Source: Achromobacter insuavis (GTDB lineage: Bacteria; Pseudomonadota; Gammaproteobacteria; Burkholderiales; Burkholderiaceae_B). Taken from it: 38,422 bases of DNA. A model generated the notes under the pieces. The model was not told the DNA's origin and searched no databases. It was given only the letters and a program-made list of their open reading frames with translations. Within the stretch, counting starts at the first letter, position 1, and each line of letters opens with the position of its first letter. The stretch is taken from positions 1 through 38,422 of the forward strand of contig NZ_CADIJR010000059.1 in NCBI RefSeq assembly GCF_902859645.1. The letters run 5' to 3'. The position numbers and the translations under genes are program-made. Below, piece by piece: positions 401 through 34,786 of this stretch.

Positions 401-1918
401 TCAGGTGTCGGGATCGAGGCGCCGGATCAGGGCGATGTAGCGGCGCCGCGCCTGGTCGGCAGGCAGGCCGGCCAGCAGGCGCCAGGTGGCCAGCTCGACC
501 TGTTCGCGCACGCTGGCGTCCGGCGCGTCCTGCGGCGGCGCATCGCCGCGCCGCGCCTGCTGCTCGTAGGCGTAGAGCCGGATGGCTACGCTGGTGGACG
601 GCGCCTGCGGCAGGGCGCGCAACTCGATCACGGCGGCCTCGAACGCGTCCTCCAGGTCGTCGGCGCCGATCGCCAGCGTCTCCCGGTCCATCGCGTCGCC
701 CTCGGGCTCCAGGCCGCTGGCGACGGCCAGCCGCCGCCAGAGTGCGTCCTCGGTGGCCGGGTCCGAGGCCCGCGCGGTGACCTTGGCGATGGTGTTGTTG
801 CGCAGGCGCAGGGTATGGGTGGAGGCGCCGCGGTAGCGGATGGGGCCGTCCTGGACGGAGAACGTCAGCGGCACCGCGATCGACCGTCCGGCCGGTTCGG
901 GCGGGCCGACGCTGTCGACCGTGAAGGTGTTGCGCGAATAGTCCATCACGCGCGAGAACAGGTCGATCAGGCCGCCGCGGCCCTGGTAGACGCCGCTCAG
1001 GGGGCTGTCGCCTTCCTCGTGCCAGGCGACGTCCTCGGCGAACAGCGGGAACAGGGTTTCGAACTGGCCCGACAGCATCGCGTCGCGGTAGTCGCCCAGG
1101 ATGCGTTCGACCTCGTCGCCGCTCATCGCGGCGGCGCGGCCCGGGCGCGCGGTGGCCGGGCGCTTGTCCATGAATTGCAGGATGTCGGCGGCGACCCGGT
1201 CGCGGTCGTTGTCGACGCAGATCATGTGGTAGCTGTTGTCCAGCAGCACCAGCCGGCTGTCGGGAATGGCGTCGTTCAGGAAGTGCGCCGAACGCACCGA
1301 GGTCAGCTCGTCCTCGTGGGCGTGGATGATCAGGCTGGGGCAGCTGATGGCGTTCAGGCCGCGTTGCACCAGGCGGCGCAGGCGGTCGACTTCGCGCACA
1401 CAGGCCAGCGGCACCCAGCGGTAGTGGAAATTCTCGCCGCGCTCGAACTTGGCCTTGACGATGGAGCGCACCAGTTCGTTCTTGATGCCGTAGGGCTCTT
1501 CCTCTTCGACCCGCATGCGCGCGGCCAGGCCGGGGATGCGGTAGACCAGATTGCGCAGGCCGCGGTACCAGGGCGTGCTCCAGCCGTCGATGAAGACCGG
1601 CGCGGCCAGGCTCACCAGCTTGCCCTTGCGGTGCTGCACGCGCTTGCACAGCTCCACCGCCAGCAGCGCGCCCAGGCACATGCCGACCACATGCAGCGTG
1701 TCGTGGCGCGCGGCCACCTCGCGGTACTTGGCGGTGACGGCGTCGATCCAGTCCTCGGCGCGCACCGGCAGCAGGTCCTCGGGCGTGGTGCCATGGCCGG
1801 GCAGCGTCAGCGTGTGGGTCTCGATGCCGGCGCGCTTGAGGATCTTGTGCAGCGAACCCAGGTCGTACTGGGTGCCGCCCAAGCCGTGGATGAGCAGGGC
1901 TCCAGGGTTAGTTGACAT
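401..1918 (-). CDS. alpha/beta hydrolase (Cys nucleophile) - SnoaL-like - acyl-CoA-binding domain fusion
   Basis: A 505-residue cytoplasmic protein without signal peptide or membrane segment. Residues 1-252 are an alpha/beta hydrolase: HGLGG oxyanion loop (11-15), nucleophile elbow GMCLG with Cys81, acid Asp203 (HEDELTS) and His231 (SYHMICVD). Residues 266-385 look like a SnoaL/NTF2-type domain. Residues 420-502 align without gaps to the second half of acyl-CoA-binding protein (LYAYEQQARRGD, TWRLLAGL, Tyr494). Cys nucleophiles occur in PHA synthases and dienelactone hydrolases, so action on an acyl-CoA or other thioester is inferred, not shown. The ATG at 1918 was preferred to an in-frame GTG at 1936. 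The start overlaps the end of the MASE1-PAS gene by 11 nt, implying translational coupling. The ACBP lysines that contact CoA are replaced. Confidence 0.82.
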   Translation of the reverse strand: MSTNPGALLIHGLGGTQYDLGSLHKILKRAGIETHTLTLPGHGTTPEDLLPVRAEDWIDAVTAKYREVAARHDTLHVVGMCLGALLAVELCKRVQHRKGKLVSLAAPVFIDGWSTPWYRGLRNLVYRIPGLAARMRVEEEEPYGIKNELVRSIVKAKFERGENFHYRWVPLACVREVDRLRRLVQRGLNAISCPSLIIHAHEDELTSVRSAHFLNDAIPDSRLVLLDNSYHMICVDNDRDRVAADILQFMDKRPATARPGRAAAMSGDEVERILGDYRDAMLSGQFETLFPLFAEDVAWHEEGDSPLSGVYQGRGGLIDLFSRVMDYSRNTFTVDSVGPPEPAGRSIAVPLTFSVQDGPIRYRGASTHTLRLRNNTIAKVTARASDPATEDALWRRLAVASGLEPEGDAMDRETLAIGADDLEDAFEAAVIELRALPQAPSTSVAIRLYAYEQQARRGDAPPQDAPDASVREQVELATWRLLAGLPADQARRRYIALIRRLDPDT

Positions 1919-3197
1919 CTGCCTGCTCGACTTCACCCAGGCGCCACATGCCGGCCACGACGGCCACGCTGCCGTCGAAATCCTCCAGCGGCGAGCCGCG
2001 GTCGCTGACCACGCGCCAGCCGCCGCCGGCGTGCGCCATGCGGAACAGCAGCGGGGTGCGGTCCTGGGCGCCGGCGCGGCGCGCGGCCCAGTGCAGCGTC
2101 AGGCGCGCGCGGTCGTCGGGATGGGCCAGCGCCAGCAACGCGTCCAGGGTGGGAATGGCGTTGGCCTGCATGCCGAAGGCGCCCTGGAGGTCGCCGGCCA
2201 ACTCGAGCGAGCCGTCGAACGGGTTGTAGCGGTACATCAGCTGGTGGCTGCCCGCCAGCGCCAGGTCGAAACGGCCGCGCCATTGCACGGCATTTTCGAG
2301 TTCCTGCGCGCGGGCGCCGCGCAGCGTGTTGACCAGCAGGATCAGCAGCGCGGTGACCACCAGGTAGACCTGGGTGGCCAGCAGCACGTGCCAGTGGTCG
2401 TTGGCCTCGACGAAGGGGCCCTCGCCCTGGGCGCTCTGGTAGAGCGCCATCAGGGTCAGCGTGACGACGCCCAGGGTGCCGCCCAGCGGGCCCCACACCA
2501 GCGCGGTCAGCACCGCGAACACCAGCGGCAGGTAGGTCAGCTCGAAGGTGACGACGTACGGCAGGTTCTTGATCATGTCGCCGTCGAAGGTCATGAAGGT
2601 CGACACGATCAGGCCGACGTAGGCGATGACGCCCAGCACCAGGTCGCGCCGCCGCGGACCGCCCGAACGGCGCGGGCGGAAATTGGCCCAGACCGTCAGC
2701 GCGGGCGCCAGGATCAGGATGCCCGCCAGGTAGGCCGCCACCCAGGTGCGCAGCCGCACCAGGGCATGGGCTTCCTGGGTCAGCCAGAGCCAGCCGCCGC
2801 CCAGTAGCGCGGACAGGCCGGCGCCGACCACCGCGCCGGCCAGCAGCGCCGCCACCAGGCCCACGCCGCCTTCGCGCGGGGTCAGGCGCTGCACCGTCCA
2901 GGCCGCCAGCAGGCTGGACAGGCTGGCGGTGATGGCGAACACCAGCGCCGTGGCGGGCTGGCCGCGGGTGAAGCTGGTGAGCGCCAGCTGGGCGCAGAAG
3001 AAGGCGGCCAGCAGCAGCGACCAGTTGCGGCGCTGCGTCAACAGATAGGCGCCCACCGCCACGCCGGGCGGCAGCCAGACGAACACGGCATGGCTGACCG
3101 GGTCGTTGAGCAGGCGCGAGAAGACGCCGCACAGCAGGTACGGGATGGCCCATAGCAGGCAGTACAGGTTCTTTCGCGGCGCTTGGGGCATTCCCAT
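1908..3197 (-). CDS. MASE1 membrane sensor with C-terminal PAS-like domain
   Basis: A 429-residue protein. Residues 1 to about 290 form many hydrophobic helices of the MASE1 type (WLPPGVAVGAYLL near the N-terminus, later YLPLVFAVLTALVWGPLGG). Residues 306-423 resemble a PAS_3 fold: MYRYNPFDGSLELAGD, AHPDDRARL, then FRMAHAGGGWRVVSDRG. MASE1 normally feeds a histidine kinase or a GGDEF/EAL domain; none follows here, and the protein stops at its PAS domain. The start at 3197 has AAGGAA a few bases upstream; the open frame continues back to 3518 but across the divergent promoter region. It is the first gene of a minus-strand set and overlaps the hydrolase fusion by 11 nt. Ligand and partner are unknown. 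Confidence 0.8.
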   Translation of the reverse strand: MGMPQAPRKNLYCLLWAIPYLLCGVFSRLLNDPVSHAVFVWLPPGVAVGAYLLTQRRNWSLLLAAFFCAQLALTSFTRGQPATALVFAITASLSSLLAAWTVQRLTPREGGVGLVAALLAGAVVGAGLSALLGGGWLWLTQEAHALVRLRTWVAAYLAGILILAPALTVWANFRPRRSGGPRRRDLVLGVIAYVGLIVSTFMTFDGDMIKNLPYVVTFELTYLPLVFAVLTALVWGPLGGTLGVVTLTLMALYQSAQGEGPFVEANDHWHVLLATQVYLVVTALLILLVNTLRGARAQELENAVQWRGRFDLALAGSHQLMYRYNPFDGSLELAGDLQGAFGMQANAIPTLDALLALAHPDDRARLTLHWAARRAGAQDRTPLLFRMAHAGGGWRVVSDRGSPLEDFDGSVAVVAGMWRLGEVEQADVN

Positions 3198-3360
3198 ATT
3201 GTTCCTTGCAGACGCTGTGACACAGGGCGAGCTGGCGCTCGCGGCAATCAGCGGGTTATACACGGCCCGGCATGGTCCGCGAAAGTTGCCGGGGCATACC
3301 GCCGTCCGAAAATCTTGGTACCCTTGGACGCAGTCATTCTCCACTCCGTTCCAGGATTCA

Positions 3361-4143
3361 GTGCTCTCCTTGCCCGCCCAGACCTTGCCTGTTCCCGATT
3401 TTGCCGGCGTTTCCGGCGTCCTGCCGGCGCGGCCGCCGGCCCGCGGCGCGGTCCGGCTCGTCCGGCTGGCGTTGCTGGCCATGCTGCTGGCGCTGCTGGC
3501 GGCCTGCGGCACGACCAAGGTCCAGCCGGGCTACTACCGGGTGCAGTCGGGCGACACGCTGACGCAGATCGCCCGCAAGCAAGGCACCAGCGTATCGAAC
3601 CTGGTGCGCTGGAACAACCTGTCCAACTCCAACTCGATCGAGGTGGGGCAGATGTTGCGCGTCGCGCCGCCCGCCGGCCAGGCCGCCGCCACGCCCGCCA
3701 AGCCGCGCGCCAGTTCCTCGGGTGGCAGCCGTTCGCCGGCGCCCGCCACTGGCAAGCGGCGCACCGCGCCGCCGGGGGCGATCTCGCTGGTGTGGCCGGC
3801 GCAGGGCAAGGTGACCCGCGGCTACGACGGCTCGGGCTCCAATGGTATCGTCATTTCCAATTCCGCCGGCACGCCGGTGGTGGCCGCCGCCGCCGGCACC
3901 GTCGCCTATTCGGGCAGCGGCCTGCGGGGCTACGGGCACCTGGTGATCGTCAAGCATAACGCCAGCTTCCTCAGCATCTACGCCCACAACAGCAAGCTGC
4001 TGGTCAAGGAAGGCCAGCGGGTGAGCCAGGGCCAGAAGATCGCGGAAATGGGCAACAGCGACAGCAAGCAGGTCGGGTTGTACTTCGAGCTGCGCTACGA
4101 CGGCCAGGCGGTCGATCCGGCGGGCTCCCTTCCCGGAAAGTAG
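3361..4143 (+). CDS. nlpD: NlpD-like LysM/LytM lipoprotein
   Basis: A 260-residue lipoprotein that probably activates a cell-wall amidase at the septum. The signal segment ends in a LLAAC lipobox (Cys49). A LysM peptidoglycan-binding domain lies at about 58-101 (YYRVQSGDTLTQIA) and a LytM/M23 domain at 146-258. The zinc-binding positions are degraded: the usual G-I-D is NGIVIS (Val for Asp) and the usual H-F-E is LYFELR (Tyr for His), while YAH (His209) remains. This is the pattern of catalytically dead activators such as NlpD. The start is taken as GTG 3361 with AGGA close upstream; the ATG at 3481 would leave almost no signal sequence. It is divergent from the MASE1 gene and is not next to surE, pcm or rpoS here. 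Confidence 0.85.
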   Translation: MLSLPAQTLPVPDFAGVSGVLPARPPARGAVRLVRLALLAMLLALLAACGTTKVQPGYYRVQSGDTLTQIARKQGTSVSNLVRWNNLSNSNSIEVGQMLRVAPPAGQAAATPAKPRASSSGGSRSPAPATGKRRTAPPGAISLVWPAQGKVTRGYDGSGSNGIVISNSAGTPVVAAAAGTVAYSGSGLRGYGHLVIVKHNASFLSIYAHNSKLLVKEGQRVSQGQKIAEMGNSDSKQVGLYFELRYDGQAVDPAGSLPGK

Positions 4144-4231
4144 GAGCCCCCACGCTGCGCGCACTGCGTGCGCTTGCTGCCCCCCGAGGGGGCTGCCCGG
4201 CCTTCGGGCGGCCGGGCGGCCGGGCGCCGCA
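4144..4231. repeat. GC-rich intergenic element with three hairpins
   Basis: The gap between the convergent nlpD-like and ABC ATPase genes is a chain of inverted repeats: GCGCAC-TGC-GTGCGC at 4159-4173, GCCCCC-CGA-GGGGGC at 4179-4193, and GCCCGGCC paired with GGCCGGGC from 4194 on. It contains no reading frame. From memory, blocks of this type are common intergenic elements in Achromobacter and Bordetella. Its position suggests a shared transcription stop or mRNA 3' end, but no T-tract is present. Confidence 0.55.
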
Positions 4232-4993
4232 TCAACCGATCTGGCCGGCGTCCTGCGTCAGCGTCGAGATGAATGCCGCGGTGCGCGGGTCGCGCGGGCG
4301 GGTGAAGAGGTCGCGCGAGGCGCCGGATTCGACCACGTCGCCATCGAGCAGGAACACCGCTTCACGCGACACGCTGGCGGCCAGGCGCAGGTCGTGCGTG
4401 GCCATCAGCATGGTCATGCCCTCGGCGGCCAGCTGGCGCAGCACGTCGACCACTTCGGCCGCCAGGCCGGGGTCGAGCGCCGAGGTCGGCTCGTCGCACA
4501 GCAATACGCGGGGGGCGGGCGCCAGGGCGCGCGCGATCGCCACGCGCTGCTGCTGGCCGCCCGACAGATTGGCGGGCCAGGCCTCGGCCTTGTCCAGCAT
4601 GTTGACCTTGCGCAGCAGCTCCTCGGCGCGCGCGCGGGCGCGGTCGGCGGGCCATTTCTGCACCGTCACCAGCCCTTCCATCACATTGCCGATGACGGTC
4701 TGGTGCGGGAACAGCTGGAAGTTCTGGAACACCATGCCGGTCTGCATGCGCACCCGCTGCACCTGGTCGCGCGAGAGCTTCTCGCCGGGCTCGAACTCGA
4801 CCCGCTCGGGGCCGATCTCGAGCGTGCCGCGGTCGGGCACTTCCAGCAGGTTGACGCAGCGCAGCAGGGTGCTCTTGCCGCTGCCGGACGGGCCGATCAG
4901 GGCGGTGACGCTGCCTTCGGCGATGGCCACGTCGACCTGCTTGAGCACCAGGTTGCCGCCAAAGGATTTCTCGATCTGTTCCAGGCGGATCAT
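4232..4993 (-). CDS. tcyN: cystine-type amino acid ABC transporter, ATP-binding protein
   Basis: A 253-residue polar amino acid uptake ATPase. Walker A GPSGSGKST is at 34-42, the Q-loop follows FQNFQLFPH (90-97), the signature is LSGGQ (143-147), Walker B is VLLCDEP (163-169), and the switch His is in THDLRLA. Length and motifs fit the GlnQ/TcyN group. It powers import through the permease encoded just upstream; the two genes overlap by ATGA at 4990-4993, so they should be translated together. The cystine assignment rests on the FliY-like binding protein of the operon; another polar amino acid remains possible. Confidence 0.88.
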   Translation of the reverse strand: MIRLEQIEKSFGGNLVLKQVDVAIAEGSVTALIGPSGSGKSTLLRCVNLLEVPDRGTLEIGPERVEFEPGEKLSRDQVQRVRMQTGMVFQNFQLFPHQTVIGNVMEGLVTVQKWPADRARARAEELLRKVNMLDKAEAWPANLSGGQQQRVAIARALAPAPRVLLCDEPTSALDPGLAAEVVDVLRQLAAEGMTMLMATHDLRLAASVSREAVFLLDGDVVESGASRDLFTRPRDPRTAAFISTLTQDAGQIG

Positions 4994-5739
4994 CGGTTCT
5001 TCTCGGAAAACACCGCGTGCTGGCCGAAGCGTCGCTCCAGGCGCACCTGGGCGGCGGACAGCACCGAACTGAACACCAGGTAGATCAGCGCGGCCTCGGT
5101 GTACAGGATCAGCGGTTCATACGTGACGGCGGCGATGCGCTGGGCCGCCTGGAAGATCTCGGGCACGGTCAGCACGGCGGCCAGCGAGGTGTCCTTGACC
5201 AGGGCGATGAAGGAATTCGACAGCGGCGGCACCGCCACCCGCGCGGCCTGCGGCAGCACGGTGCGGCGCAGCGCCTGGGCGCGCGTCATGCTCAGGGAAT
5301 AGGCGGCTTCCCACTGGCCGCGGGAGATCGACTCGATGGCGCCGCGGATCACTTCGGAGTTGTAGGCGCCGACGTTCAGCGTGAAGCCGATCAGCGCCGC
5401 CGGCAGCGGGTCGAGCACCACGCCGACGCTGGGCAGGCCGTAGAAGATCACGAACAGCTGCACCAGCAGCGGCGTGCCGCGGATCAGCCAGACGTAGAAA
5501 CGCACCAGCGCCACCAGCGGCGCCGGCCCGAACAGCCGGATCAGCGCCACCACGAAGGCCAGCGCCAGCCCCAGCGCGAACGACATCAGCGTCAGCGGGA
5601 CGGTGAACACCAGCCCGGCGTGCAGCAGGGGCCAGAACGAGTCGGCCATCAACTGCACCCAGGCCGGCACCGCGAGGGCGTCGACCTGGGCCAGGATCCA
5701 GTCGGGCAGGACGTTGTGCAGCCAGGCGGGGAGCGTCAT
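4990..5739 (-). CDS. tcyL: cystine-type amino acid ABC transporter, permease
   Basis: A 249-residue inner-membrane permease of the HisM/GlnP (His/Glu/Gln/Arg) family. Its hydrophobic helices and the cytoplasmic EAA-type loop (GAIESISRGQWEAAYSLS, then VLPQAARVAVPPL) mark the contact with the ATPase. RLFGPAPLVALVRFYVWLIRGTPLLVQ is the conserved N-terminal region of the family. It is the middle gene of a binding protein-permease-ATPase operon, 12 nt after the binding protein gene and overlapping the ATPase by 4 nt. It is the only permease in the set, so it probably works as a homodimer, as in TcyL systems. Confidence 0.88.
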   Translation of the reverse strand: MTLPAWLHNVLPDWILAQVDALAVPAWVQLMADSFWPLLHAGLVFTVPLTLMSFALGLALAFVVALIRLFGPAPLVALVRFYVWLIRGTPLLVQLFVIFYGLPSVGVVLDPLPAALIGFTLNVGAYNSEVIRGAIESISRGQWEAAYSLSMTRAQALRRTVLPQAARVAVPPLSNSFIALVKDTSLAAVLTVPEIFQAAQRIAAVTYEPLILYTEAALIYLVFSSVLSAAQVRLERRFGQHAVFSEKNR

Positions 5740-5751
5740 GGAGCGGACCGC

Positions 5752-6537
5752 TTATTGCTGCGCCGACAGGTCCGTGCCGAAGTACTTGACCGAGATGGTC
5801 TTGTAGGTGCCGTCGGCCTTGATGTCGGCCAGCGCCTTGTTGATGGCGGCCACCAGTTCAGGATTGTTCTTGCGCAGCAGCACGCCGGAGTTGCTGAACT
5901 CGGCGGCCTTGTCGGTGGCGGCGATCTTGACCTTGGCGTTGGGCTTCTGCTTCTTGAAGTCCAGGAACGACAGGTTGTCGTTGACCGTGGCCTCGACGCG
6001 GCCCGAGGTCAGCAGGTCGATGGCTTCGTTGAAGCCTTGCACCGCGACCACTTCCGCGCCGTGGCTCTGCGCCAGCTTGCCGAAGTTGCTGGTGAGCGTG
6101 TTGGCGGACTTTTTGCCCTTGAGGTCGGCGAACGACTTGATGGTGGTGTTGTCGTCGCGCACGATCAGCACGGCGGCCGACGAGATGTAGGGATCGGAGA
6201 AGTCGTACTTGGCGCGGCGCGCGTCGGTGATGCCGACCTGGTTGATGACGGCGTCGTAGCGCTTGGCGTCGAGCCCGGCGATCAGGCCGTCCCACTTGCC
6301 TTCGACGAATTCGGCCTTGACGCCCAGGCGCTGGGCGATGGCGCGCCCAATGTCGACGTCAAAACCGGTAAGCTGCCCGGATGCGTCGTGGAAGGTGAAG
6401 GGAGCGTAGGTGCCTTCGGTGCCGATCTTGAACACGCCGGCGGACTTGATCTGGTCCAGCCCCGACTGGGCATGGGCGGCGGACAGGGCGGCGACCTGGA
6501 CCAGGCCGGCGATGAACAACGAGCGCAAGAGTTTCAT
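5752..6537 (-). CDS. tcyJ: cystine/polar amino acid-binding periplasmic protein (FliY/TcyJ-like)
   Basis: A 261-residue SBP_bac_3 protein. The signal peptide (MKLLRSLFIA...ALSAAHA) is probably cut after Ala23. Mature motifs GTEGTYAPFTFHD, KWDGLIAGLDAKRYDAVINQV and TDARRAKYDFSDPY follow E. coli FliY/TcyJ closely, especially the K-W-D-G and D-x-V-I-N-Q-V segments, which is why cystine is the favoured ligand. The start at 6537 has GGAG seven bases upstream and gives a clean signal peptide; an upstream in-frame ATG at 6564 would add nine residues without benefit. It is the first gene of the transporter operon, with an A+T-rich promoter region at 6610-6665. Confidence 0.87.
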   Translation of the reverse strand: MKLLRSLFIAGLVQVAALSAAHAQSGLDQIKSAGVFKIGTEGTYAPFTFHDASGQLTGFDVDIGRAIAQRLGVKAEFVEGKWDGLIAGLDAKRYDAVINQVGITDARRAKYDFSDPYISSAAVLIVRDDNTTIKSFADLKGKKSANTLTSNFGKLAQSHGAEVVAVQGFNEAIDLLTSGRVEATVNDNLSFLDFKKQKPNAKVKIAATDKAAEFSNSGVLLRKNNPELVAAINKALADIKADGTYKTISVKYFGTDLSAQQ

Positions 6538-6638
6538 GGCAATGCTCCACGGATGAGAGATCACTGCGAAAGGCCCGCGTCAGCCGCGCCGCCTTCCGGT
6601 GTAGCCGCACTCTAACAACGCGTCTATTTTTCCACAAA

Positions 6639-6652
6639 GCATAAGGAATAGT
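6639..6652 (-). promoter_or_regulatory. candidate CysB-like element in the tcyJLN promoter region
   Basis: The only A+T-rich patch of the tcyJ/P1-peptidase gap (about 6622-6662) contains ACTATTCCTTATGC on the minus strand. T-A-T-T-C-C-T-T-A-T is reminiscent of elements before sulphur-starvation genes controlled by CysB-family regulators. This is a similarity from memory only; no -35/-10 pair was convincingly placed. Confidence 0.25.
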
Positions 6653-6687
6653 AAAAATATAGCGGCAAGTCATATGCGGCATTCGCG

Positions 6688-6709
6688 CCCCGGGCCGCCC
6701 GGCCCGGGG
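6688..6709. other. strong GC stem-loop before the P1 peptidase gene
   Basis: CCCCGGGCC at 6688-6696 pairs perfectly with GGCCCGGGG at 6701-6709 around a GCCC loop. It ends 20 nt before the start of the peptidase gene, inside its likely leader, and no T-tract follows. It may shape translation of that gene or lie at the edge of the divergent promoter; its role is unknown. Confidence 0.5.
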
Positions 6710-6729
6710 TTCATCCAGGCGGTATCCAG

Positions 6730-7818
6730 ATGGAGACAGGCGTGCAACAACAGTGGAACAGGCGGGCTTTCATGATGGCGGCGGCGGGTGTCGCGGCGTC
6801 CGCGGGCGTCATGCCGGCGCACGGCGCCAACGGCCTGCGGCGGGTGCCCGGCGGCGGCAGCATCACCGACGTGGCCGGCCTCAAGGTCGGGCACTACACC
6901 GACACGCGGCGGCCGACCGGCTGCACGGTCATCATCGCGGAAGCGGGCGCCACCGGCGGCGTGGACGTGCGCGGCGCCGCGCCGGGCACGCGCGAGACCG
7001 ACCTGCTCAATCCCGTCAACATGGTGGAAAAAGTGCATGCGGTGATGCTGGCCGGCGGCAGCGCCTTCGGTCTGGAGGCGGCCACCGGCGTCATGCGCTA
7101 CCTGGAGGAACGCAAGATCGGGTTCGACGTCGGCGTGGCGCACGTGCCGATCGTGCCGGCCGCCATCCTGTTCGACCTGGGCGTGGGCGACGCCTCGGTG
7201 CGGCCCGACGCGGCCGCCGGCTACCAGGCCTGCAAGTCGGCCAGCGCCAAGCCGCCGCAGGAGGGCAACGTCGGCGCCGGCGCCGGGGCGACGGTCGGCA
7301 AGCTGTACGGCGCCAAGCGCGCCATGAAGGGCGGCCTGGGCAGCGCCTCGCTGACCGTGGCGGGCGTCACGGTGGGCGCGATCGTCGCGGTCAATGCGGT
7401 GGGCGACGTGGTCGATCCGGCCACCGGCCACGTGCTGGCCGGCGCCCGCACCGCCGACGGCAAGATGCTGCTGGACACGCGCGCGGCGATCCTGGCGGGC
7501 GACCTGCCGACCTCGATGCGCGAAGGCGCGGCCACCACCATCGGGCTGGTGGCGACCGACGTCAAGCTGACCAAGGCGCAGGCGCAGAAGATGGCGCAGA
7601 CCGCGCACGACGGCCTGGCCCGCACCATCAACCCGATCCACACCATGCTCGACGGCGACACCGTGTTCGCGCTGGGCACGGGCGTGTCCAGCAAGCCCGC
7701 CAACATGATGCTGCTGGGCGTGATGGCGGCCGAGGCGATGGCGATCGCGGTGCAGCGCGCCATCCTGGCGGCGCGCGCGCTGGAAGGCTATCCGGCGGCG
7801 GTGGATTTCATCGCCTGA
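6730..7818 (+). CDS. P1-family (DmpA/NylC-like, S58) peptidase, Tat-exported
   Basis: A 362-residue N-terminal-nucleophile hydrolase. The start has a Tat-type signal (NRRAFMMAAAGVAASAG, then PAHG-AN), so export in folded form is likely. LAGGSAFGLEAA (108-118) and the late IHTMLDGDTVFALGTG are family signatures. The self-cleavage region is REGAATTIGLVATD: Thr269 aligns with the nucleophile of DmpA/NylC enzymes, which split into two chains before this residue. Here the residue before it is Ala268 rather than the Asn or Gly known from NylC or DmpA. Such enzymes act on D-/beta-aminopeptides, amides or nylon oligomers; the substrate here is unknown. AGGCGG precedes ATG 6730; GTG 6742 (GGAG upstream) is an alternative start. 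Confidence 0.86.
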   Translation: METGVQQQWNRRAFMMAAAGVAASAGVMPAHGANGLRRVPGGGSITDVAGLKVGHYTDTRRPTGCTVIIAEAGATGGVDVRGAAPGTRETDLLNPVNMVEKVHAVMLAGGSAFGLEAATGVMRYLEERKIGFDVGVAHVPIVPAAILFDLGVGDASVRPDAAAGYQACKSASAKPPQEGNVGAGAGATVGKLYGAKRAMKGGLGSASLTVAGVTVGAIVAVNAVGDVVDPATGHVLAGARTADGKMLLDTRAAILAGDLPTSMREGAATTIGLVATDVKLTKAQAQKMAQTAHDGLARTINPIHTMLDGDTVFALGTGVSSKPANMMLLGVMAAEAMAIAVQRAILAARALEGYPAAVDFIA

Positions 7819-21740: not shown

Positions 21741-22208
21741 CTATAGCAGGAAGACGGCCGCCACGATCAGCAGCCCCAGCGCCAGGTTGACCCCGACCCA
21801 GCGGCGGATGCCGGCCATGGCCTGGCCGCCGCGCGGCCATTCCGAGGCGGCCACCGCCGCGCGCAGGCGCGGATAGAGCGCCGCGCGGATGTAGGCATAG
21901 ATGGCCGTCATCACCAGCCCGCCCGTGGCCATCACGGTCCAGGCGCGCGGCATGAAGAAGGCGCCGCCGCTGCGCGCGGCCTGGGCCGCCTCCTGGCCGA
22001 TCATGACCGCGCCGGTCGCCAGGATCAGCACGATGGCGGCCAGCACCGCGTTCAGGAACGGGCCCAGCACCGCGGCCATCAACCGCAGGCGCTGCGGCGG
22101 TTCGAGTTGCGCGGCCGCCGGCCGCAGGAAACAGTGGGCGAACAGCATGCCGCCGACCCAGAGGATCACGGCCAGCAGGTGGATGAGTTTGAGGGCGCTG
22201 TAGAGCAT
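21741..22208 (-). CDS. CopD-like small membrane protein
   Basis: A 155-residue protein with four hydrophobic helices: LKLIHLLAVILWVGGMLFAHCFLRPAA, MAAVLGPFLNAVLAAIVLILATGAVMI, TVMATGGLVMTAIYAYIRAAL and WVGVNLALGLLIVAAVFLL. The N-terminal H-L-L-x-x-I-L-W-V-G-G-M-L motif with conserved His is typical of the CopD/YebZ-type copper-resistance domain. Copper transport is therefore only one possibility; many family members have no tested role. ATG 22208 lacks a strong Shine-Dalgarno, and the frame stays open to 22424 across the hurI promoter. It is divergent from hurI. Confidence 0.75.
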   Translation of the reverse strand: MLYSALKLIHLLAVILWVGGMLFAHCFLRPAAAQLEPPQRLRLMAAVLGPFLNAVLAAIVLILATGAVMIGQEAAQAARSGGAFFMPRAWTVMATGGLVMTAIYAYIRAALYPRLRAAVAASEWPRGGQAMAGIRRWVGVNLALGLLIVAAVFLL

Positions 22209-22368
22209 GGTGTCGGAGTTCGGGAAGGGGCCGCGCCGGCGCGATGCCGGCGGCGAGGCCTGGCTGTGGGCGGTGGCCGCCGGAGAAAAGGCGGCCGAAT
22301 CTGTCCCCATCATATATCCCCATGCCGCCCGGGCGGGCTTCTTGACGCGTGTCAGGGTTTTGCATTTA

Positions 22369-22388
22369 GAATGAGATTGATTTTTATT
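22369..22388. promoter_or_regulatory. Fur-box-like promoter region of hurI
   Basis: GAATGAGATTGATTTTTATT resembles the A/T-rich Fur repeat. Just upstream, TTGACG (22342-22347) and TTTAGA (22365-22370) are 17 nt apart and form a plausible sigma-70 promoter, so the box overlaps or follows the -10 element. Iron repression of a FecI-type sigma gene is expected here. Confidence 0.6.
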
Positions 22389-22416
22389 TGTGATCAAGAG
22401 AGTTCGGGAGTCCACC

Positions 22417-22926
22417 GTGTCCAACCTTGCGCTTGCCTCCGGCGACGCCGTCCATCTGCTCTACCGCGCGCACCACGGATGGCTGCATGGCTGGTTGCGG
22501 GGCAAGCTGGGCAATTCCTGCGATGCCGCCGACCTGGCGCAGGACACCTTCCTGCGAGTGCTGCGGCACCGACACGAACTCGACGCGCTGCGCGAGCCGC
22601 GCGCCTACCTGACCACCATCGCCAAGCGCCTGGTGCTGAATCACTACCGGCGCCGCTCGCTCGAACAGGCCTACCTGGACGCCCTGGCGGCCATGCCCGA
22701 GGCCACGGCGCCGTCGCCCGAGCAGCGCCTGCTCATCCTCGAAACGTTGCAGGAAATCGACGAGATGCTGGCGGGCCTGGCGCGGCCGGCGCGCCAGGCC
22801 TTCCTGATGGCGCAGCTCGAAGGGCTCAGCCATATCGAGATCGCCGCGCGGCTGAACGTGTCGGTGCGGTCGGTGCACCGCTACATCGCCAAGGGGTACG
22901 AGCAATGCATCATGGCGGTGATGTGA
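22417..22926 (+). CDS. hurI: FecI-type ECF sigma factor HurI
   Basis: A 169-residue ECF sigma factor. Region 2 contains LYRAHHGWLHGWLRGKLGNSCDAADLAQDTFLRVLR and region 4 QAFLMAQLEGLSHIEIAARLNVSVRSVHRYIAKG. In Bordetella HurI is freed by haem bound to BhuR and transcribes bhuRSTUV. GTG 22417 has GGGAG six bases upstream and was chosen over an earlier GTG at 22390 inside the promoter region. The gene is followed by hurR, which begins before its stop; the Fur-like box upstream couples it to iron level. Confidence 0.9.
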   Translation: MSNLALASGDAVHLLYRAHHGWLHGWLRGKLGNSCDAADLAQDTFLRVLRHRHELDALREPRAYLTTIAKRLVLNHYRRRSLEQAYLDALAAMPEATAPSPEQRLLILETLQEIDEMLAGLARPARQAFLMAQLEGLSHIEIAARLNVSVRSVHRYIAKGYEQCIMAVM

Positions 22927-23906
22927 GCGCCCAGTGGGGCGTGGCGGGCGAACTGCCCGCCGTCGACCGCAAGGTCGCGCGCGAGGCGGCGCGCTGGCTG
23001 CTGCGCCTGAGTTCCGAGCGCGCCACCGATGCCGACGTCCATGCCTGCCAGCAATGGCGCGCCAGCAAGGCCGAGCATGAACATGCCTGGCAGCGCGCGC
23101 AGCGCGTCAATCAGCGCTTCGGCCTGATCCCGGCGTCCCTTGGCATGGCGGCGTTGAACCGGCCCGAATCGGCCGGTCGGCGCGCGGCGCTCAAGACGCT
23201 GGCCGCGCTGATCGTGGCCGGGCCGGCGGGTTGGGCCGCCTGGCGCGCCAGTCCGTTCGAATGGACCGCCGACTACCGCAGCGCGACCGGCGAACAGCGC
23301 CAGGTGGCGCTCAGCGACGGTTCCTCCATGCGCCTGAACACCGCCAGCGCGGTCGACGTCCTGTACGACGCCGACCAGCGGCTGGTGCGGCTGCGCGCCG
23401 GCGAGATCGCGGTCCATGCGGTGGCCGAGACCGGCGCCCATGCGCGGCCCTTCGTGGTGCGCACGAAGCAGGGCGATATCCAGGCGCAGGCGGCGCGCTT
23501 CTGCGTGCGCGAAGACGGCTCTGCCTGCCGCGTCAGCGTGCAGGAGGGCGGCGTGACGCTGCGCCGCGGCGACGCCAGCCTGGCGCTGGCCGCCGGCGAG
23601 CAGGCCTGGCTGCGCGATGATGACGCGCCGCGCATCGAGCCGGCCGACCCGCATGCCGCCGACTGGACGCGCGGCGTGCTGCACGCCAGCGCCTGGCGCC
23701 TGGACGCCTTCGCGGCGGAGCTGGGCCGCTACCGGCCCGGCGTGCTGCGCTGTGATCCGGCAGTCGCCGGGCTGCGCATCTCCGGCGCCTTCCAATTGCA
23801 GGATACCGACGCGGTGCTGGCGGCCTTGCCGTCCACGCTGCCGGTGCAGGTGCGCTACCGCAGCGCTTACTGGGTGACGATCATGCCGCGCGCGGGACAG
23901 GCCTGA
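22905..23906 (+). CDS. hurR: FecR-type anti-sigma/signal transducer HurR
   Basis: A 333-residue FecR protein. The N-terminal cytoplasmic part (DRKVAREAARWLLRLSSERATDADVHACQQWRAS) binds the sigma factor. One membrane segment follows (LKTLAALIVAGPAGWAAW, about 99-116), then the periplasmic FecR domain (ATGEQRQVALSDGSSMRLNTASAVDV, VRTKQGDIQAQAARFCVRED) and a C-terminal STN-like region that meets the receptor's signalling domain. ATG 22905 overlaps hurI by 22 nt and has AAGGGG upstream; GTG 22923 (4-nt overlap) is an alternative. Confidence 0.9.
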   Translation: MHHGGDVSAQWGVAGELPAVDRKVAREAARWLLRLSSERATDADVHACQQWRASKAEHEHAWQRAQRVNQRFGLIPASLGMAALNRPESAGRRAALKTLAALIVAGPAGWAAWRASPFEWTADYRSATGEQRQVALSDGSSMRLNTASAVDVLYDADQRLVRLRAGEIAVHAVAETGAHARPFVVRTKQGDIQAQAARFCVREDGSACRVSVQEGGVTLRRGDASLALAAGEQAWLRDDDAPRIEPADPHAADWTRGVLHASAWRLDAFAAELGRYRPGVLRCDPAVAGLRISGAFQLQDTDAVLAALPSTLPVQVRYRSAYWVTIMPRAGQA

Positions 23907-24018
23907 TTTGTCGTTGTTACAAAAAAGCCGGGGGCGAGCTGTCCGGTTGGCGTTGGCCGAGGGTCATGGTCAGTAGAGGCAAACAAATGCCGATACCCGT
24001 TGGATCGAAAGGACGACC

Positions 24019-26637
24019 ATGGCTCACTCCCCCGCCAGCCGCGCCCGCGGCACCCCCTTGAACCGAGAGGCTCCATGCCGATTGACCCGCCTGGCCCTGG
24101 CGCTGCGCATTGCCACCGTGCTGGCTGCCCCGGCCGTCGCGCTGTGGCCGGCCGCGGCCGCGCAGGCCCAGGCCGCGCCGGCCGAGCAGGCGCGCAGCTA
24201 CCGCATTCCGGCCGGCCCGCTGGCCGAGAATCTGTCGCGCTTCGCCGACAACGCCGGCGTCACGGTGCTGTTCGACGCGGCGCTGGTGGGCCAGCGCCGC
24301 GGTGCCGGACTGAACGGGGAGTATTCCGTGGCTGACGGTTTCGCCCGCCTGCTGGCCGGCAGCGGCCTGGCCGCGCGCGAGCGCAGCCCCGGCGTGTTCG
24401 TGCTGCAGGCCTTGCCGCAGACCGGCGTGACGCAACTGACGCCGGTCACGGTGGAAGGCGAGGGCGCGGCGGTCACGCCGGCCTGGGAAACCCGCAGCGA
24501 CCGCAAGCGCCTGGACGACGCGCAGGTGCGCAGCTGGAGCGACCTGGGCAAGCGCCTGGAACCCGGCGTGAATTTCAACCGCCAGAACAACAGCATCAAC
24601 ATCCGCGGCCTCGACCAGGACCGCGTGCTGACGCGCGTGGACGGCATCCGCCTGCCGTGGCTCGACGACGGCGCGCGCGGCGTCAAGGGCGGCCTGGAGG
24701 CGGTGGACTTCAATTCCCTGTCGCGCCTGGACATCGTGCGCGGCGCCGACGCCAGCGCCGGCGGTTCGGGCGCCATCTCGGGCATGGCCGACCTGTACAC
24801 GCTCGATCCCTCGGACCTGCTGACCGACGGCAAGACCTTCGGCGCGCTGGCCAAGACCGACTACGACACCGCCGACAGCAGCTGGGGCGCCAACGCCGCG
24901 CTGGCCGGGCAGATCCACAGCAATACCTTCTGGCTGGTGCAGGCGGGCGTGCGCAACGGCCACGCGCTCGACAACCGCGGCGACGTCGGCGGCTACGGCC
25001 CGCGCCGCAACCAGCCGACCCCCGAGGACTACGACCAGCGCAGCTTCCTGCTCAAGCTGCAGCAGCGCGTCGAAGGCGGCCACCGCTTCGGCCTGACCGG
25101 CGAATACTTCAAGCGCAAGGCCACCCAGGACAGCATGTTCGAGCAGGGGCCGGGCACCAGCTACCTGATCGGCGAGAACACCACCCGAAAGGAAACCGAG
25201 CGCCAGCGCGTGTCGCTCGATTATTCCTACAAGGCGCCCGCCGAGGGCGGCTGGATCGACAGCGCCACCGCGGTGGTGTACTGGCAGCGCATGCAGCTCG
25301 ATAGCGCGCTCGACGGCGAGCGCAGCCGCGATTCGCGCGCCAACATCATTCCTGGCGATCCGTTCCTCTACGGCTTTCCCAGCGGCGCCTATGGCCGCAA
25401 CAACTCCATCCGCCAGACCATGTTTGGCGCCAACGGCGAGCTGACCAAGCGCCTGGCGGGCAACGCGGTATCGCAGCTGTGGACCGTGGGCGGCGAGTGG
25501 TACGGCAACAAGACCGAGCAGAACTCCAATGGCTACGACAACTGCCCGACGGTGCGTCCCGGCACCCCGGCGCTGTTCGGCCCGCGCACCTGCGACATGC
25601 TGCACACCAACCAGGCCGACGTGCCGCTGTCCAAGGGCAGCCAGTGGGCGCTGTGGGTGTCCGACGAGTTCAGCTTCGGCGACGGCCGCTACACCGTCAT
25701 GCCGGCGCTGCGCTACGACCACTACGAGCAGACGCCCAAGTCCACCGAGAGCTACGCCAGCAACCGCAACGGCGGCGTGCTGCCGCCCGAGAACAGCGGC
25801 GGGCGCTTCTCGCCCAAGCTGCTGACCACCTGGAAGGCGGCCGACGACCTGAGCCTGTACGCGCAGTACGCGTATGGCTTCAAGGCACCCAGCGCGACGC
25901 AGCTGTACACCAACTACGGCGGCCCCGGCACCTACCTGCGGGTCGGCAACCCCTACCTGAAGCCGGAAACCAGCAAGGGCTGGGAGCTGGGCGCCAAGCT
26001 GGGTTCCGATTCGCTCGGCGGCGCGTTATCGTTCTTCGACAACCGTTACCAGAATTTCATCGACAGCAATGTGCCGCTGGATGCCAACTCGCCGCAATGG
26101 CAGCCGGGCTGGGCCGGGCAGTACCCGCTGGGCGTCACCGGCAACGTCAACCGCGCCAAGGTGCGCATCTACGGCGCCGAGGCCAGCGCGCACTGGAAGT
26201 TCTCGCCGGGCTGGCGCACCTGGGGCTCGCTGGCGTGGGCCGTGGGCAAGGATGAGGGCACCGGCCAGTACCTGAACTCGGTGGCGCCGCTGAAGGCGGT
26301 GCTGGGCGTGGGCTACGGCCGCGACGTGTGGGGCGTGGACGCGATGCTGACGACCGCCCTGCGCCGCAACAAGGTCGAGTACCCGGAAGCCGGCGCCACG
26401 ACGCCCAACCGCGACTTCCAGGCGCCCGGCTACGGCGTGGTGGACCTGATGGGCTACTGGCGGCCGACGGCGGTCAAGGGGCTGCAGGTGCAGGCCGGCG
26501 TGTTCAACCTGTTCGACAAGAAGTACTGGGAAGCGATCAACGTGCCGACCGCCGGCGCCACGGCCCTGCCGCGGCCGGTGGACTGGTACACGGAACCGGG
26601 GCGCAGCCTGCGCGTCTCACTGACTTATCAATACTGA
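24019..26637 (+). CDS. bhuR: TonB-dependent haem/haemoglobin receptor BhuR
   Basis: An 872-residue outer-membrane receptor. The signal peptide ends near AAAAQA (residue 50). An STN signalling domain (YRIPAGPLAENLSRFADNAGVTVLFDAAL, about 61-132) contacts HurR; then plug (NINIRGLDQDRVLTRVDGIRLPW) and 22-strand barrel ending in VSLTYQY with terminal aromatic Tyr. The FRAP and NPNL boxes of haem receptors appear as FKAP (621-624) and NPYL (644-647). No histidine lies between them, where HemR-type receptors have a haem-ligand His. AAGGA precedes the ATG. Its upstream gap (23907-24018) should hold the HurI-dependent promoter. Confidence 0.93.
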   Translation: MAHSPASRARGTPLNREAPCRLTRLALALRIATVLAAPAVALWPAAAAQAQAAPAEQARSYRIPAGPLAENLSRFADNAGVTVLFDAALVGQRRGAGLNGEYSVADGFARLLAGSGLAARERSPGVFVLQALPQTGVTQLTPVTVEGEGAAVTPAWETRSDRKRLDDAQVRSWSDLGKRLEPGVNFNRQNNSINIRGLDQDRVLTRVDGIRLPWLDDGARGVKGGLEAVDFNSLSRLDIVRGADASAGGSGAISGMADLYTLDPSDLLTDGKTFGALAKTDYDTADSSWGANAALAGQIHSNTFWLVQAGVRNGHALDNRGDVGGYGPRRNQPTPEDYDQRSFLLKLQQRVEGGHRFGLTGEYFKRKATQDSMFEQGPGTSYLIGENTTRKETERQRVSLDYSYKAPAEGGWIDSATAVVYWQRMQLDSALDGERSRDSRANIIPGDPFLYGFPSGAYGRNNSIRQTMFGANGELTKRLAGNAVSQLWTVGGEWYGNKTEQNSNGYDNCPTVRPGTPALFGPRTCDMLHTNQADVPLSKGSQWALWVSDEFSFGDGRYTVMPALRYDHYEQTPKSTESYASNRNGGVLPPENSGGRFSPKLLTTWKAADDLSLYAQYAYGFKAPSATQLYTNYGGPGTYLRVGNPYLKPETSKGWELGAKLGSDSLGGALSFFDNRYQNFIDSNVPLDANSPQWQPGWAGQYPLGVTGNVNRAKVRIYGAEASAHWKFSPGWRTWGSLAWAVGKDEGTGQYLNSVAPLKAVLGVGYGRDVWGVDAMLTTALRRNKVEYPEAGATTPNRDFQAPGYGVVDLMGYWRPTAVKGLQVQAGVFNLFDKKYWEAINVPTAGATALPRPVDWYTEPGRSLRVSLTYQY

Positions 26638-26705
26638 CCCGCGCTGCCGCCGCTGCGCGTCAGCGGCGGCAGTCCTGATTTTCCATTCCGGCCGGAGAGC
26701 CCGCA

Positions 26706-27764
26706 ATGAACCAAGAAGTGAAGCACACCGATTTCGATACCCGCGCCGCCGACCTGCGCGCGCGCAACGACGCGCTGGCGGCGAGCCAACCCGGCCTGCG
26801 CGCCCGCAACCTGGCGCAGGCGCTGGGCGTGTCCGAGGCCGAATGGGTCGCCGCCGGCTGTGGCGGCGTCAAGGCCACCGAACTGCACGGCCAGCCGCAG
26901 GAGATCTTCCGCGAACTGGGCACGCTGGGACCGGTGATGGCCTTGACGCGCAATGACTGGTGCGTGCATGAACGCCACGGCGAATACCTGGACATCCAGG
27001 CCGACGGGCCGGTGGGCCTGGTGCTGGGTCCCGACATCGACCTGCGCGTGTTCTTCTCGAGCTGGCGCTCGGCCTGGGCGGTCGAGCAGGACGGCCGCCA
27101 CAGCCTGCAGTTCTTCGACGGCGAGGGCGTGGCGGTGCACAAGGTCTACCGCACCGAGGCCACCAACGCCGCAGCGTTCGATGCGTTGGTGGCCCGGTTC
27201 GCCGGCGCGTCGCGCTGGCCCGAGACCGCGCCCTATGCGCCCGCCGCCGACGCGCCGCGGGTCGAGGACAGCGCGCAGTGGCGCCAGGCCTGGCTCGGCA
27301 TGCAGGACACGCACGAGTTCTTCCCGCTGCTGCGCAAGTTCAAGGTGTCGCGCCTGGCGGCGCTGGAGGCGGCCGGCGAGGACCTGGCCCAGACCGTGCC
27401 GGTGGAATCGGTCGAGCGCATGCTGGAGTCGGCCGCGGGCAGCGGCCTGTCGATCATGTGCTTCGTCGGCAACCGGGGCATGATCCAGATCCATACCGGA
27501 CCCGTTGAGCAGCTGCGCCGCACCGGTCCCTGGTATAACGTGCTGGACCCGAAGTTCAACCTGCATCTGGACACCACCGCCATCGCGTCGGCGTGGGTGG
27601 TCAACAAGCCCACCAGCGATGGCTGGGTGACGTCGCTGGAGCTGTATTCTTCCAGCGGCGACCTGATCGCGCAGTTCTTTGGCGAGCGCAAGCCGGGCAA
27701 GCCGGAACTGCCGGGCTGGCGCGAATTGATGTTGGGTCTGTGCCGCGTGCCGTTGGCCGCGTGA
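26706..27764 (+). CDS. bhuS: haem-handling/degrading cytoplasmic protein BhuS
   Basis: A 352-residue member of the HemS/HmuS family built from two related halves. First half: GTLGPVMALTRNDWCVHERHGEYLDIQ and VHKVYRTEATNAAAFDALVARF; second half: GLSIMCFVGNRGMIQIHTGPVEQL and WYNVLDPKFNLHLD. These proteins take haem from the importer and hand it to, or act as, a haem-degrading enzyme. The gene starts 68 nt after bhuR and is followed after 10 nt by bhuT, so the five bhu genes form one transcript. Confidence 0.92.
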   Translation: MNQEVKHTDFDTRAADLRARNDALAASQPGLRARNLAQALGVSEAEWVAAGCGGVKATELHGQPQEIFRELGTLGPVMALTRNDWCVHERHGEYLDIQADGPVGLVLGPDIDLRVFFSSWRSAWAVEQDGRHSLQFFDGEGVAVHKVYRTEATNAAAFDALVARFAGASRWPETAPYAPAADAPRVEDSAQWRQAWLGMQDTHEFFPLLRKFKVSRLAALEAAGEDLAQTVPVESVERMLESAAGSGLSIMCFVGNRGMIQIHTGPVEQLRRTGPWYNVLDPKFNLHLDTTAIASAWVVNKPTSDGWVTSLELYSSSGDLIAQFFGERKPGKPELPGWRELMLGLCRVPLAA

Positions 27765-27774
27765 GGATGAAGCA

Positions 27775-28608
27775 ATGAAGAAATGGCTGGCGATGGCGGC
27801 GGGATGGATGCTGGTGGCTTGCGCGCAGGCGGCGCCGCCTGCGCGCGTGGTGACCCTGGGCGGTAGCGTGACGGAGATCGTGTACGGCCTGGGGCAGGGC
27901 GACAGGCTGGTGGGCGACGACCAGTCCAGCCTGTACCCGGAAGCCGCGACCAGGCTGCCGCGCGTCGGCTATTACCGCGCGGTGCCGGTGGAGGGCGTGC
28001 TGGCGCTCAAGCCCGACCTGGTGCTGGCGTCCGAGCAGGCCGGCCCGCCCGAGGCGCTCAAGCGCCTGGGCGAAGTCGGCGTGAAGGTCGTGAGCGTGCC
28101 GGACGCGCCGTCGGTCGACTCGCTCAAGGCGCGCATCCGCGCCGTCGCCGGCGCGCTGGACGTGGCGCCGGAAGGCGAACGGATGGTGCAGGAGGTCACG
28201 CGCGAGCTCGACAAGGCCGAGGCGCTGCCGGCCACCCGCGCGCGGGCGCTGCTGCTGATCAACCGCAACGGCGCGCCGCAGGGCGCGGGGCATGGCACCG
28301 CGGCGGCCGAGGTCATGCACCTGGCCGGGCTGGCCAATGTGCTGGACGGGCAGCAGGGCTACAAGCCGCTGTCGCCCGAGGCCATCGGCGCGCTGGCGCC
28401 GGACCTGATCATCGTGACGCGTGAATCGCTGCAGGCCAGCGGCGGCCTGGAAGGCTTCGCGCGGCTGCCCGGCATCGCCGTGACGCAGGCCGCCGCGAAG
28501 CAGCGCATCATCGTCATGGACGACCTGCTGATCCTGGGCCTGGGGCCGCGCCTGCCGCAGGCGCTGACCCAGCTCAAACAGGAGGCCGCGCATGCCATGG
28601 CGCGCTAA
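27775..28608 (+). CDS. bhuT: periplasmic haem-binding protein BhuT
   Basis: A 277-residue class III binding protein. The signal peptide is MKKWLAMAAGWMLVACAQA; the stretch L-V-A-C could also serve as a lipobox (Cys16). RVVTLGGSVTEIVYGLG starts the N-lobe, and Tyr66/Tyr67 in GYYRAV correspond to the haem-ligand Tyr of ShuT/HmuT. The rigid linker helix is SVDSLKARIRAVAGALDVAPEGERMVQEVTREL. It delivers haem to BhuUV. The 3' end overlaps bhuU by 17 nt. Confidence 0.92.
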   Translation: MKKWLAMAAGWMLVACAQAAPPARVVTLGGSVTEIVYGLGQGDRLVGDDQSSLYPEAATRLPRVGYYRAVPVEGVLALKPDLVLASEQAGPPEALKRLGEVGVKVVSVPDAPSVDSLKARIRAVAGALDVAPEGERMVQEVTRELDKAEALPATRARALLLINRNGAPQGAGHGTAAAEVMHLAGLANVLDGQQGYKPLSPEAIGALAPDLIIVTRESLQASGGLEGFARLPGIAVTQAAAKQRIIVMDDLLILGLGPRLPQALTQLKQEAAHAMAR

Positions 28609-29590
28609 CCCGCCCCTGGCGCTGGTGTTGCTGGCGGTGGCGTTGGTGGCGGCGGTGCTGGCGGCCAGCGCCAGCGGCGCGGTCTCGATTCCGTTGCGCG
28701 AGCTGCCGTCGCTGTTGTGGGGCACGCCCACGCCGGAGCAGGCGTTGTGGCGCAATGTGCTGATCGACATCCGCCTGCCGCGCGTGCTGCTGGCGGTGGT
28801 GATGGGCGCCGGCCTGGCGATCTCGGGCGCGGCGCTGCAGGCGCTGTTCCGCAATCCGCTGGCCGAGCCCGGCCTGATCGGCATTTCCGCCGGCGCGTCG
28901 CTGGGCGCCGTCATCGCCATCGTGATGACGCATGGCGGCTTCTGGTACACCGCGCCGGGCGCCTTCATCGGCAGCCTGATCGCGACGCTGTCGGCCTACA
29001 TGGTGGGCCGGCGCGTGCCGGGCGTGGCCGGGCTGCTGCTGGCGGGGGTGGCGATCACCGCCATCGCCTTCAGCCTGATCGGCCTGTTCACCTTCATGGC
29101 TTCCGACGCGCAGCTGCGCGACCTGACCTTCTGGAACATGGGCAGCCTGGCCGGCGCCAGCTGGAAGCTGCTGGCCTTCCTGGGGCCGTGGGTGCTGCTG
29201 CTGTCGCTCTGGCTGATGCGCCAGTGGCGCGTGATGAACGCGCTGCTGCTGGGCGAGCGCGAAGCCCAGCACCTGGGCTATTCGCTCAAGCAGGCGCGGG
29301 CCCGGCTGGTGCTGGCCTGCACCCTGATCGTCGGGCCGCTGGTGGCCGCCAGCGGCACCATCGTGTTCGTCGGCCTGGTGGTGCCGCACCTGGTGCGCAT
29401 GACGCTGGGCGCCAACCATCGCCTGCTGCTGCCCGCCTGTCTGCTGGGTGGCGGGCTGGTGATGACGCTGGCGGACTGGCTGGCGCGCATCGTGGTGGTG
29501 CCGGCCGAACTGCCGATCGGCCTGGTGACCGGACTGGTCGGCGGGCCGTTCTTCCTGTGGTTGCTGGCGCGCGGCCGGAGGCACGGTTGA
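28592..29590 (+). CDS. bhuU: haem ABC transporter permease BhuU
   Basis: A 332-residue FecCD-type permease with about ten helices. Signatures are IRLPRVLLAVVMGAGLAISGAALQALFRNPLAEPGLIGISAGA and the coupling region TIVFVGLVVPHLVRMTLGANHR. AGGAGG lies six bases before ATG 28592, which is inside the bhuT end (17-nt overlap). The stop and the bhuV start share one base (TGATG). With BhuV it imports haem across the inner membrane. Confidence 0.93.
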   Translation: MPWRANPPLALVLLAVALVAAVLAASASGAVSIPLRELPSLLWGTPTPEQALWRNVLIDIRLPRVLLAVVMGAGLAISGAALQALFRNPLAEPGLIGISAGASLGAVIAIVMTHGGFWYTAPGAFIGSLIATLSAYMVGRRVPGVAGLLLAGVAITAIAFSLIGLFTFMASDAQLRDLTFWNMGSLAGASWKLLAFLGPWVLLLSLWLMRQWRVMNALLLGEREAQHLGYSLKQARARLVLACTLIVGPLVAASGTIVFVGLVVPHLVRMTLGANHRLLLPACLLGGGLVMTLADWLARIVVVPAELPIGLVTGLVGGPFFLWLLARGRRHG

Positions 29591-34768: not shown

Positions 34769-34786
34769 TATCCCTGAAATCAGGTA
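34769..34786 (-). promoter_or_regulatory. NarL-type inverted heptamer box, copy 1
   Basis: On the minus strand TACCTGA-TTTC-AGGGATA, a pair of inverted heptamers, overlaps the stop codon of the histidine kinase gene and lies 85 nt before the sigma-like gene. The same 18-bp layout occurs at 37404-37421 before the response regulator gene. NarL/FixJ-type regulators bind inverted TACYYMT-like heptamers. Confidence 0.55.

Follow-up and report, generated by a model that had tools for sequence, protein, structure and literature searches.

Organization of the locus

The window, which is the whole stretch of DNA analysed here, comprises 38,422 nucleotides from Achromobacter insuavis. Two overlapping genes on its minus strand, one for a hydrolase (P0001) and one for a membrane sensor (P0002), are the subject of this study. 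Their features are as follows.

401..1918, minus strand: P0001, hydrolase-SnoaL-ACBP gene, 505 aa
1187..1897, minus strand: alpha/beta hydrolase domain of P0001 (residues 8-244), monoacylglycerol-lipase fold; from Pfam and fold comparison
1676..1678, minus strand: codon of Cys81 in the GMCLG nucleophile elbow; Cys in 92/93 distinct relatives
1310..1312, minus strand: codon of Asp203, the triad acid; conserved in 92/93
1226..1228, minus strand: codon of His231, the triad base, within SYHMICVDND; conserved in 92/93
1373..1516, minus strand: cap (residues 135-182), where conservation within the sensor-linked family is highest
764..1117, minus strand: SnoaL/NTF2-like domain (residues 268-385); from Pfam and hhalign
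425..652, minus strand: ACBP domain (residues 423-498) with a probably altered CoA site (Gln453, Glu475); from Pfam
1908..3191, minus strand: P0002, MASE1-PAS membrane sensor without an output domain, 427 aa; from Pfam and a structure model
2316..3098, minus strand: MASE1 domain of P0002 (residues 32-292); Pfam E 3e-20
1950..2177, minus strand: PAS_3 domain of P0002 (residues 339-414); Pfam E 1.1e-6 and Foldseek PAS matches

The region 401-1918 can be translated on the plus strand, yet that reading is not the gene in question. On the minus strand, the three domains that the original prediction had placed in one chain (hydrolase, SnoaL-like and ACBP) were all found, the SnoaL-like one with a profile score just under the cut-off.

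Catalytic residues and fold of the hydrolase

Relatives of P0001 were taken from 110 loci (30 loci plus the best 80 of 97 named-genome loci), which gave 103 related proteins, 93 of them distinct. In the alignment of these 93 proteins, each triad residue (Cys81, Asp203, His231) is retained in 92. The exception is L029, a distant serine hydrolase that was let in via a short high-identity match. Thus, the predicted use of Cys81 instead of serine as the nucleophile agrees with the alignment, and the predicted triad is supported indirectly, by the alignment and by superposition on monoacylglycerol lipases. The domain has the alpha/beta hydrolase fold and the nucleophile-acid-histidine order of the monoacylglycerol lipase-like superfamily; the elbow in the family is GMC[LM]G, not the GxSxG of a serine nucleophile.

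A cysteine elbow is reminiscent of PHA synthases. An acyltransferase, in which the acyl group on the cysteine is passed to an alcohol, an amine or a growing polyester, was therefore weighed as an alternative, and the ornithine-lipid O-acyltransferase OlsI gave a weak NCBIfam match (14.3 bits, cut-off 385) that points in the same direction. However, no PHA synthase family was present among the Pfam and NCBIfam hits listed at E up to 1, and PHA synthase identity of P0001 was rejected on this ground. Furthermore, the folds nearest to the P0001 model are monoacylglycerol lipases and carboxylesterases, a comparison that covers the hydrolase domain alone, since hydrolase matches fill the result list. 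The model has a pTM of 0.62, and the mutual placement of its domains is uncertain. We regard the acyltransferase as improbable.

The distribution of the cysteine was followed in a phylum-wide search of 398 genomes, which gave 29 loci (L111-L139), two of them members of the family. In the 27 distant non-family loci, the elbow residue is Ser in 24 and Cys in three (L113, L119 and L124). With L023 (GLCIG), there are four Cys elbows outside the family, and the motifs seen are GLCIG, GLCMG and GLCAG. These four distant hydrolases have no MASE1 neighbour within their short flanks. Thus, the family has a fixed Cys elbow, which a few distant relatives share.

The cap is strongly conserved. Over 86 sensor-linked rows its mean entropy is 0.56 bits, and 22 of its 48 positions are near-invariant. 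The median dN/dS over Achromobacter pairs is 0.042 for the cap, compared with 0.19 for the hydrolase, 0.24 for the ACBP domain and 0.35 for the SnoaL domain. The idea that the cap is the slowest-evolving part by dN/dS holds in Achromobacter and fails in the two smaller groups, Polaromonas (5 sequences) and Caballeronia-Chromobacterium (4 sequences), where the whole hydrolase has a value no higher than that of the cap. PAS, NTF2-like, ACBP and hydrolase domains are all module types able to bind small ligands. The family-wide conservation of the cap would also suit an idle or very slow ligand receptor, in which an acyl signal bound by the hydrolase fold forms a long-lived cysteine adduct that reports to the sensor. 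However, retention of each triad residue in 92/93 proteins is expected of an enzyme, and we consider such a receptor very improbable.

The upstream MASE1-PAS sensor

The P0002 gene lies directly upstream of the P0001 gene, and the two overlap by 11 nt. The MASE1 profile (PF05231) scores 73 bits in P0002, above the cut-off of 29.8. No output domain (kinase, GGDEF or EAL) was found: Pfam at E up to 0.1 gives MASE1 and PAS_3 alone. The structure model consists of a membrane helix bundle, a long helix (residues 266-314) and a PAS-like end, the final strand of which reaches residue 422 of 427, and PAS domains head the Foldseek matches. Aligned with L149, P0002 is 27% identical over 362 residues (E 6e-26); in L149, the MASE1-PAS part is followed by HisKA, HATPase and receiver domains. 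To judge from these sequences, P0002 looks like a receptor minus its kinase part, with the hydrolase gene standing in its place.

The original prediction had overlooked this gene, which is a near-universal partner. Among the best 80 of the 97 named-genome loci, 79 have a MASE1-PAS gene upstream on the same strand; many of these loci share genera and they are not independent. In 76 of the 80, the sensor gene is within 100 nt of the hydrolase gene, and 55 of the 76 pairs overlap, where the distances depend on the start codons picked by the script. As for the others, the sensor is at 172 nt in L082, was detected by tblastn only in L093 and L102, and was not found in L100 (Variovorax). Beside the 27 distant non-family hydrolase loci, no sensor was found (0/27) in flanks of about 1.5 kb, which were sometimes shorter.

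The reciprocal search was made with a sensor alignment in 330 genomes of the order (E up to 1e-40, with the top five candidates scored per genome), and it gave 16 places in 14 genomes. Because the alignment was built from hydrolase-linked sensors and the cut-off and candidate number were strict, the count favours linked sensors. Nine of the 16 places, including that of the window, are in frames of 540 aa or less. A family hydrolase adjoins eight of these nine (one being the window), and all eight hydrolases carry Cys. The remaining seven places are in frames of 703-1024 aa, of which L149 is the one read in detail. The locus L148 (genome G134), from the same bacterial family as the window genome, encodes an output-less MASE1-PAS sensor with no Cys hydrolase in its stretch; this sensor may have a different partner.

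Achromobacter also possesses a single-domain paralogue of the hydrolase (L018-L022 and L150), which shares the Cys elbow and lacks a neighbouring sensor. In the genome of the window, the paralogue is L150 (contig G000:C26, hydrolase frame near 5648-6709), and no MASE1 gene was found in 12 kb around it. In L018, the paralogue adjoins an AraC-type regulator gene. Because these paralogues and the unlinked hydrolase of L100 retain Cys, the Cys is not tied to the sensor. We also considered residues specific to sensor-linked hydrolases as a clue. Only three positions are invariant in the linked hydrolases yet changed in the unlinked paralogue, which is uninformative and gives little sign of a docking face.

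The ACBP domain in Achromobacter and in other relatives

The ACBP profile (PF00887) matches the C-terminal region of P0001 with a Pfam E of 1.3e-8 and 35.4 bits (39.8 bits in the order-sample search), above the curated cut-off of 28.3. Thus, the proposed ACBP-like C-terminal domain was confirmed by a significant match, the lack of which had been named as one of two refuting outcomes. An ACBP match was present in 120 of 399 sampled genomes of the order, and the domain of the window is the lowest scorer of the matches listed in that sample. It is the sole ACBP match in its genome. Outside Achromobacter, the ACBP domains of the seven relatives scanned score 67-92 bits.

In ACBPs, Lys32 and Lys54 hold the phosphate of CoA. 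P0001 has Gln453 at the Lys32 position and Glu475 at the Lys54 position. Both lysines are present in 20 of the 20 distinct relatives outside Achromobacter versus none of the 19 distinct Achromobacter proteins. In these 19, position 32 is Gln in 14, Arg in three, Lys in one and Trp in one; position 54 is Glu in eight, Arg in eight and another residue in three, so that eight keep a basic residue there. Across all fused ACBP domains, the Trp58 equivalent is kept in 39/39 and the Tyr73 equivalent in 38/39. Because the dN/dS value of the ACBP domain shows purifying selection, the Achromobacter tail is altered, not decaying. We propose that the domain has probably been altered in Achromobacter, where none of the 19 proteins has both lysines. 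The predicted role of the tail as an acyl-CoA carrier therefore stands in part: acyl-CoA carriage is likely in the relatives outside Achromobacter, given their lysines, and doubtful in Achromobacter, including the protein of the window.

SnoaL and ACBP as optional domains

By length, the 93 distinct relatives are 39 three-domain, 13 two-domain and 41 one-domain proteins, and L029 is counted within the 41. One of the 13 (L016/L043), in which the match reaches query residue 417, resembles a three-domain protein truncated where its contig stops. Hydrolase-only orthologues occur, for example, in Herbaspirillum, Collimonas, Ralstonia and Bordetella hinzii, and proteins of two-domain length in Cupriavidus. 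The SnoaL profile (PF12680) is just under its cut-off in the window (25.5 bits against 27) and exceeds it in L045, L046, L047 and L049. The middle regions of the clades align with each other with a probability of 96-99.9 by hhalign. The SnoaL and ACBP domains are optional accessories. A quick, unrooted architecture tree, built from 116 of 125 rows after nine near-duplicate Achromobacter rows were left out, needs six changes and is compatible with gain as well as with loss of domains.

These results bear on the reading favoured by the original prediction, namely an acyl-CoA hydrolase that acts alone and supplies itself, its ACBP tail feeding Cys81; the MASE1-PAS gene would then be only co-transcribed. 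A cysteine nucleophile suits thioesters, and the canonical ACBP domains in the seven scanned relatives outside Achromobacter, together with the lysine pairs complete in 20/20 relatives from outside this genus, fit this reading. However, many orthologues have no ACBP domain, the ACBP domain of the window combines the lowest listed score with the absence of both lysines, and the sensor upstream in 79/80 loci is left unexplained. Because the SnoaL and ACBP domains are optional among orthologues, self-supply cannot be the core function of the family. We consider the self-supplying hydrolase unlikely.

Genomic surroundings and mobility

A PlpD-like patatin-Omp85 gene cluster is present near the sensor-hydrolase pair in 36 of the 110 loci, and the domains were confirmed in L080, L046 and L061. 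In 31 of the 36, the patatin gene lies convergently just downstream, a single arrangement common to related genera. In L046 the gene sits upstream in divergent orientation, in L061 downstream and co-directional, and in L083, L109 and L110 some kilobases off. A different type of patatin-like gene lies 38 nt upstream of the sensor gene, in the same direction, on a plasmid of Variovorax. Two patatin profiles found no patatin in the Achromobacter loci analysed; the contig of the window has none, and the four Patatin matches of its genome sit on four other contigs. The background in 31 genomes is 110 matched stretches, some of which are fragments of one gene, or about one per Mb, and we roughly estimate the chance rate at about 1% per 12 kb neighbourhood. 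The patatin neighbours point to a lipid-related chemistry, although a single inherited gene order accounts for most of the 36.

The sensor-hydrolase pair was also found on plasmids of Variovorax and Pandoraea. On the Pandoraea plasmid pPO70-1 (L153, positions 3349-7218), the pair is near a transposase gene, and the plasmid is typed as conjugative. Because of this location, the pair may move as a unit.

Other genes were noted around the pair. At positions 1-366 of the window, a DUF2946-type gene adjoins the P0001 gene (the domain was scanned in the L031 orthologue). In L031 (7553-9180), the DUF2946-type gene is followed by SCO1/SenC and PCuAC copper-chaperone genes, forming a copper-handling group. 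Farther along the window, positions 22107-29590 hold an iron-uptake-like group with a FecR-type regulator, a TonB-dependent receptor with an STN domain and a FecCD permease, and positions 34780-36741 (minus strand) encode a 7TMR-DISM sensor histidine kinase.

A possible sensor-hydrolase module

We tentatively propose, with a probability of roughly 0.4, that the overlapping genes encode a two-gene module in which a MASE1-PAS receptor uses a cysteine acyl-hydrolase as its output; the overlapping genes may instead be merely co-expressed. The receptor half would consist of the MASE1 transmembrane bundle, a signalling helix and a single PAS domain with no output domain. The hydrolase half is presumably cytoplasmic, and the two would act together at the inner membrane, where the sensor would dock, anchor and gate the hydrolase instead of a built-in kinase or cyclase. 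Cys81 would attack a lipid thioester or ester to form an acyl-thioenzyme, from which the acyl group would be released or transferred. Long-chain acyl-CoA would be presented by the ACBP tail of the relatives; the Achromobacter tail probably has another role, such as docking or binding of a different acyl ligand. The MASE1 domain of E. coli DgcE is described as the docking site for the GTPase RdcA, and the authors suggest partner docking on other MASE1 domains too (PMC6510439). By analogy, the docked partner here would be an output enzyme, not an activator as RdcA is for DgcE.

A wider form of this proposal would make the pair a novel type of receptor system in bacteria. A separately encoded thiol acyl-hydrolase would serve as the output of the MASE1-PAS sensor and would free or destroy a fatty-acyl messenger in direct response to a membrane signal. 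The ACBP and NTF2-like modules, where present, would tune the substrate supply, and the gene pair would be mobile. We consider this wider form rather doubtful.

Previous descriptions and significance

In searches of open full texts, no paper describing the pair or the domain order was found. This agrees with the initial statement that no characterised enzyme is known to have such a domain order. The closest paper found that combines MASE1 and 'beta hydrolase' mentions an unrelated transposon hit (PMC8294551), and the words 'hydrolase' and 'fusion' are absent from the main text of a paper on bacterial ACBP genes (PMC8174751). In databases, one orthologue with the hydrolase-SnoaL-ACBP architecture is annotated simply as 'acyl-CoA-binding protein'. 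In two plasmid records, the sensor is called 'MASE1 domain-containing protein' and the hydrolase either 'acyl-CoA-binding protein' or 'alpha/beta fold hydrolase'. Thus, this is a well-conserved gene pair of known parts, for the combination of which no report was found, and there is an open chance that it represents a new type of receptor-enzyme system.

Few partners are known for MASE1, a widespread sensory domain. Through its conserved pairing with a thiol hydrolase, the role of an output-less MASE1-PAS protein can be addressed genetically and biochemically, and one can ask whether signalling may have acyl chemistry as its direct output. The hydrolases also form a natural series from one to three domains, with the ACBP domain intact or altered, and comparing them can show what a tethered acyl-CoA binder contributes.

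Comparison with known systems

Bacterial monoacylglycerol lipases (Bacillus H257 MGL, LipS and the Est30-type carboxylesterases) have the same fold and order of triad residues as P0001. In contrast to them, P0001 has Cys for Ser, its own strongly conserved cap, additional SnoaL and ACBP domains and a membrane-sensor partner. The fused tail shares with ACBPs (PF00887) a score above the cut-off and the Trp58 and Tyr73 equivalents; it differs in being C-terminal on an enzyme and, in Achromobacter, in having both CoA-phosphate lysines in 0/19 proteins. The PlpD-like patatin-Omp85 phospholipases, which neighbour the module in 36/110 loci, are not members of the pair. Finally, known MASE1 sensors (E. 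coli DgcE and MASE1-PAS histidine kinases such as L149) have a MASE1 bundle followed by PAS, as in P0002. In contrast to DgcE and L149, the P0002 chain ends after PAS with no GGDEF, EAL or kinase domain, and the hydrolase gene comes next.
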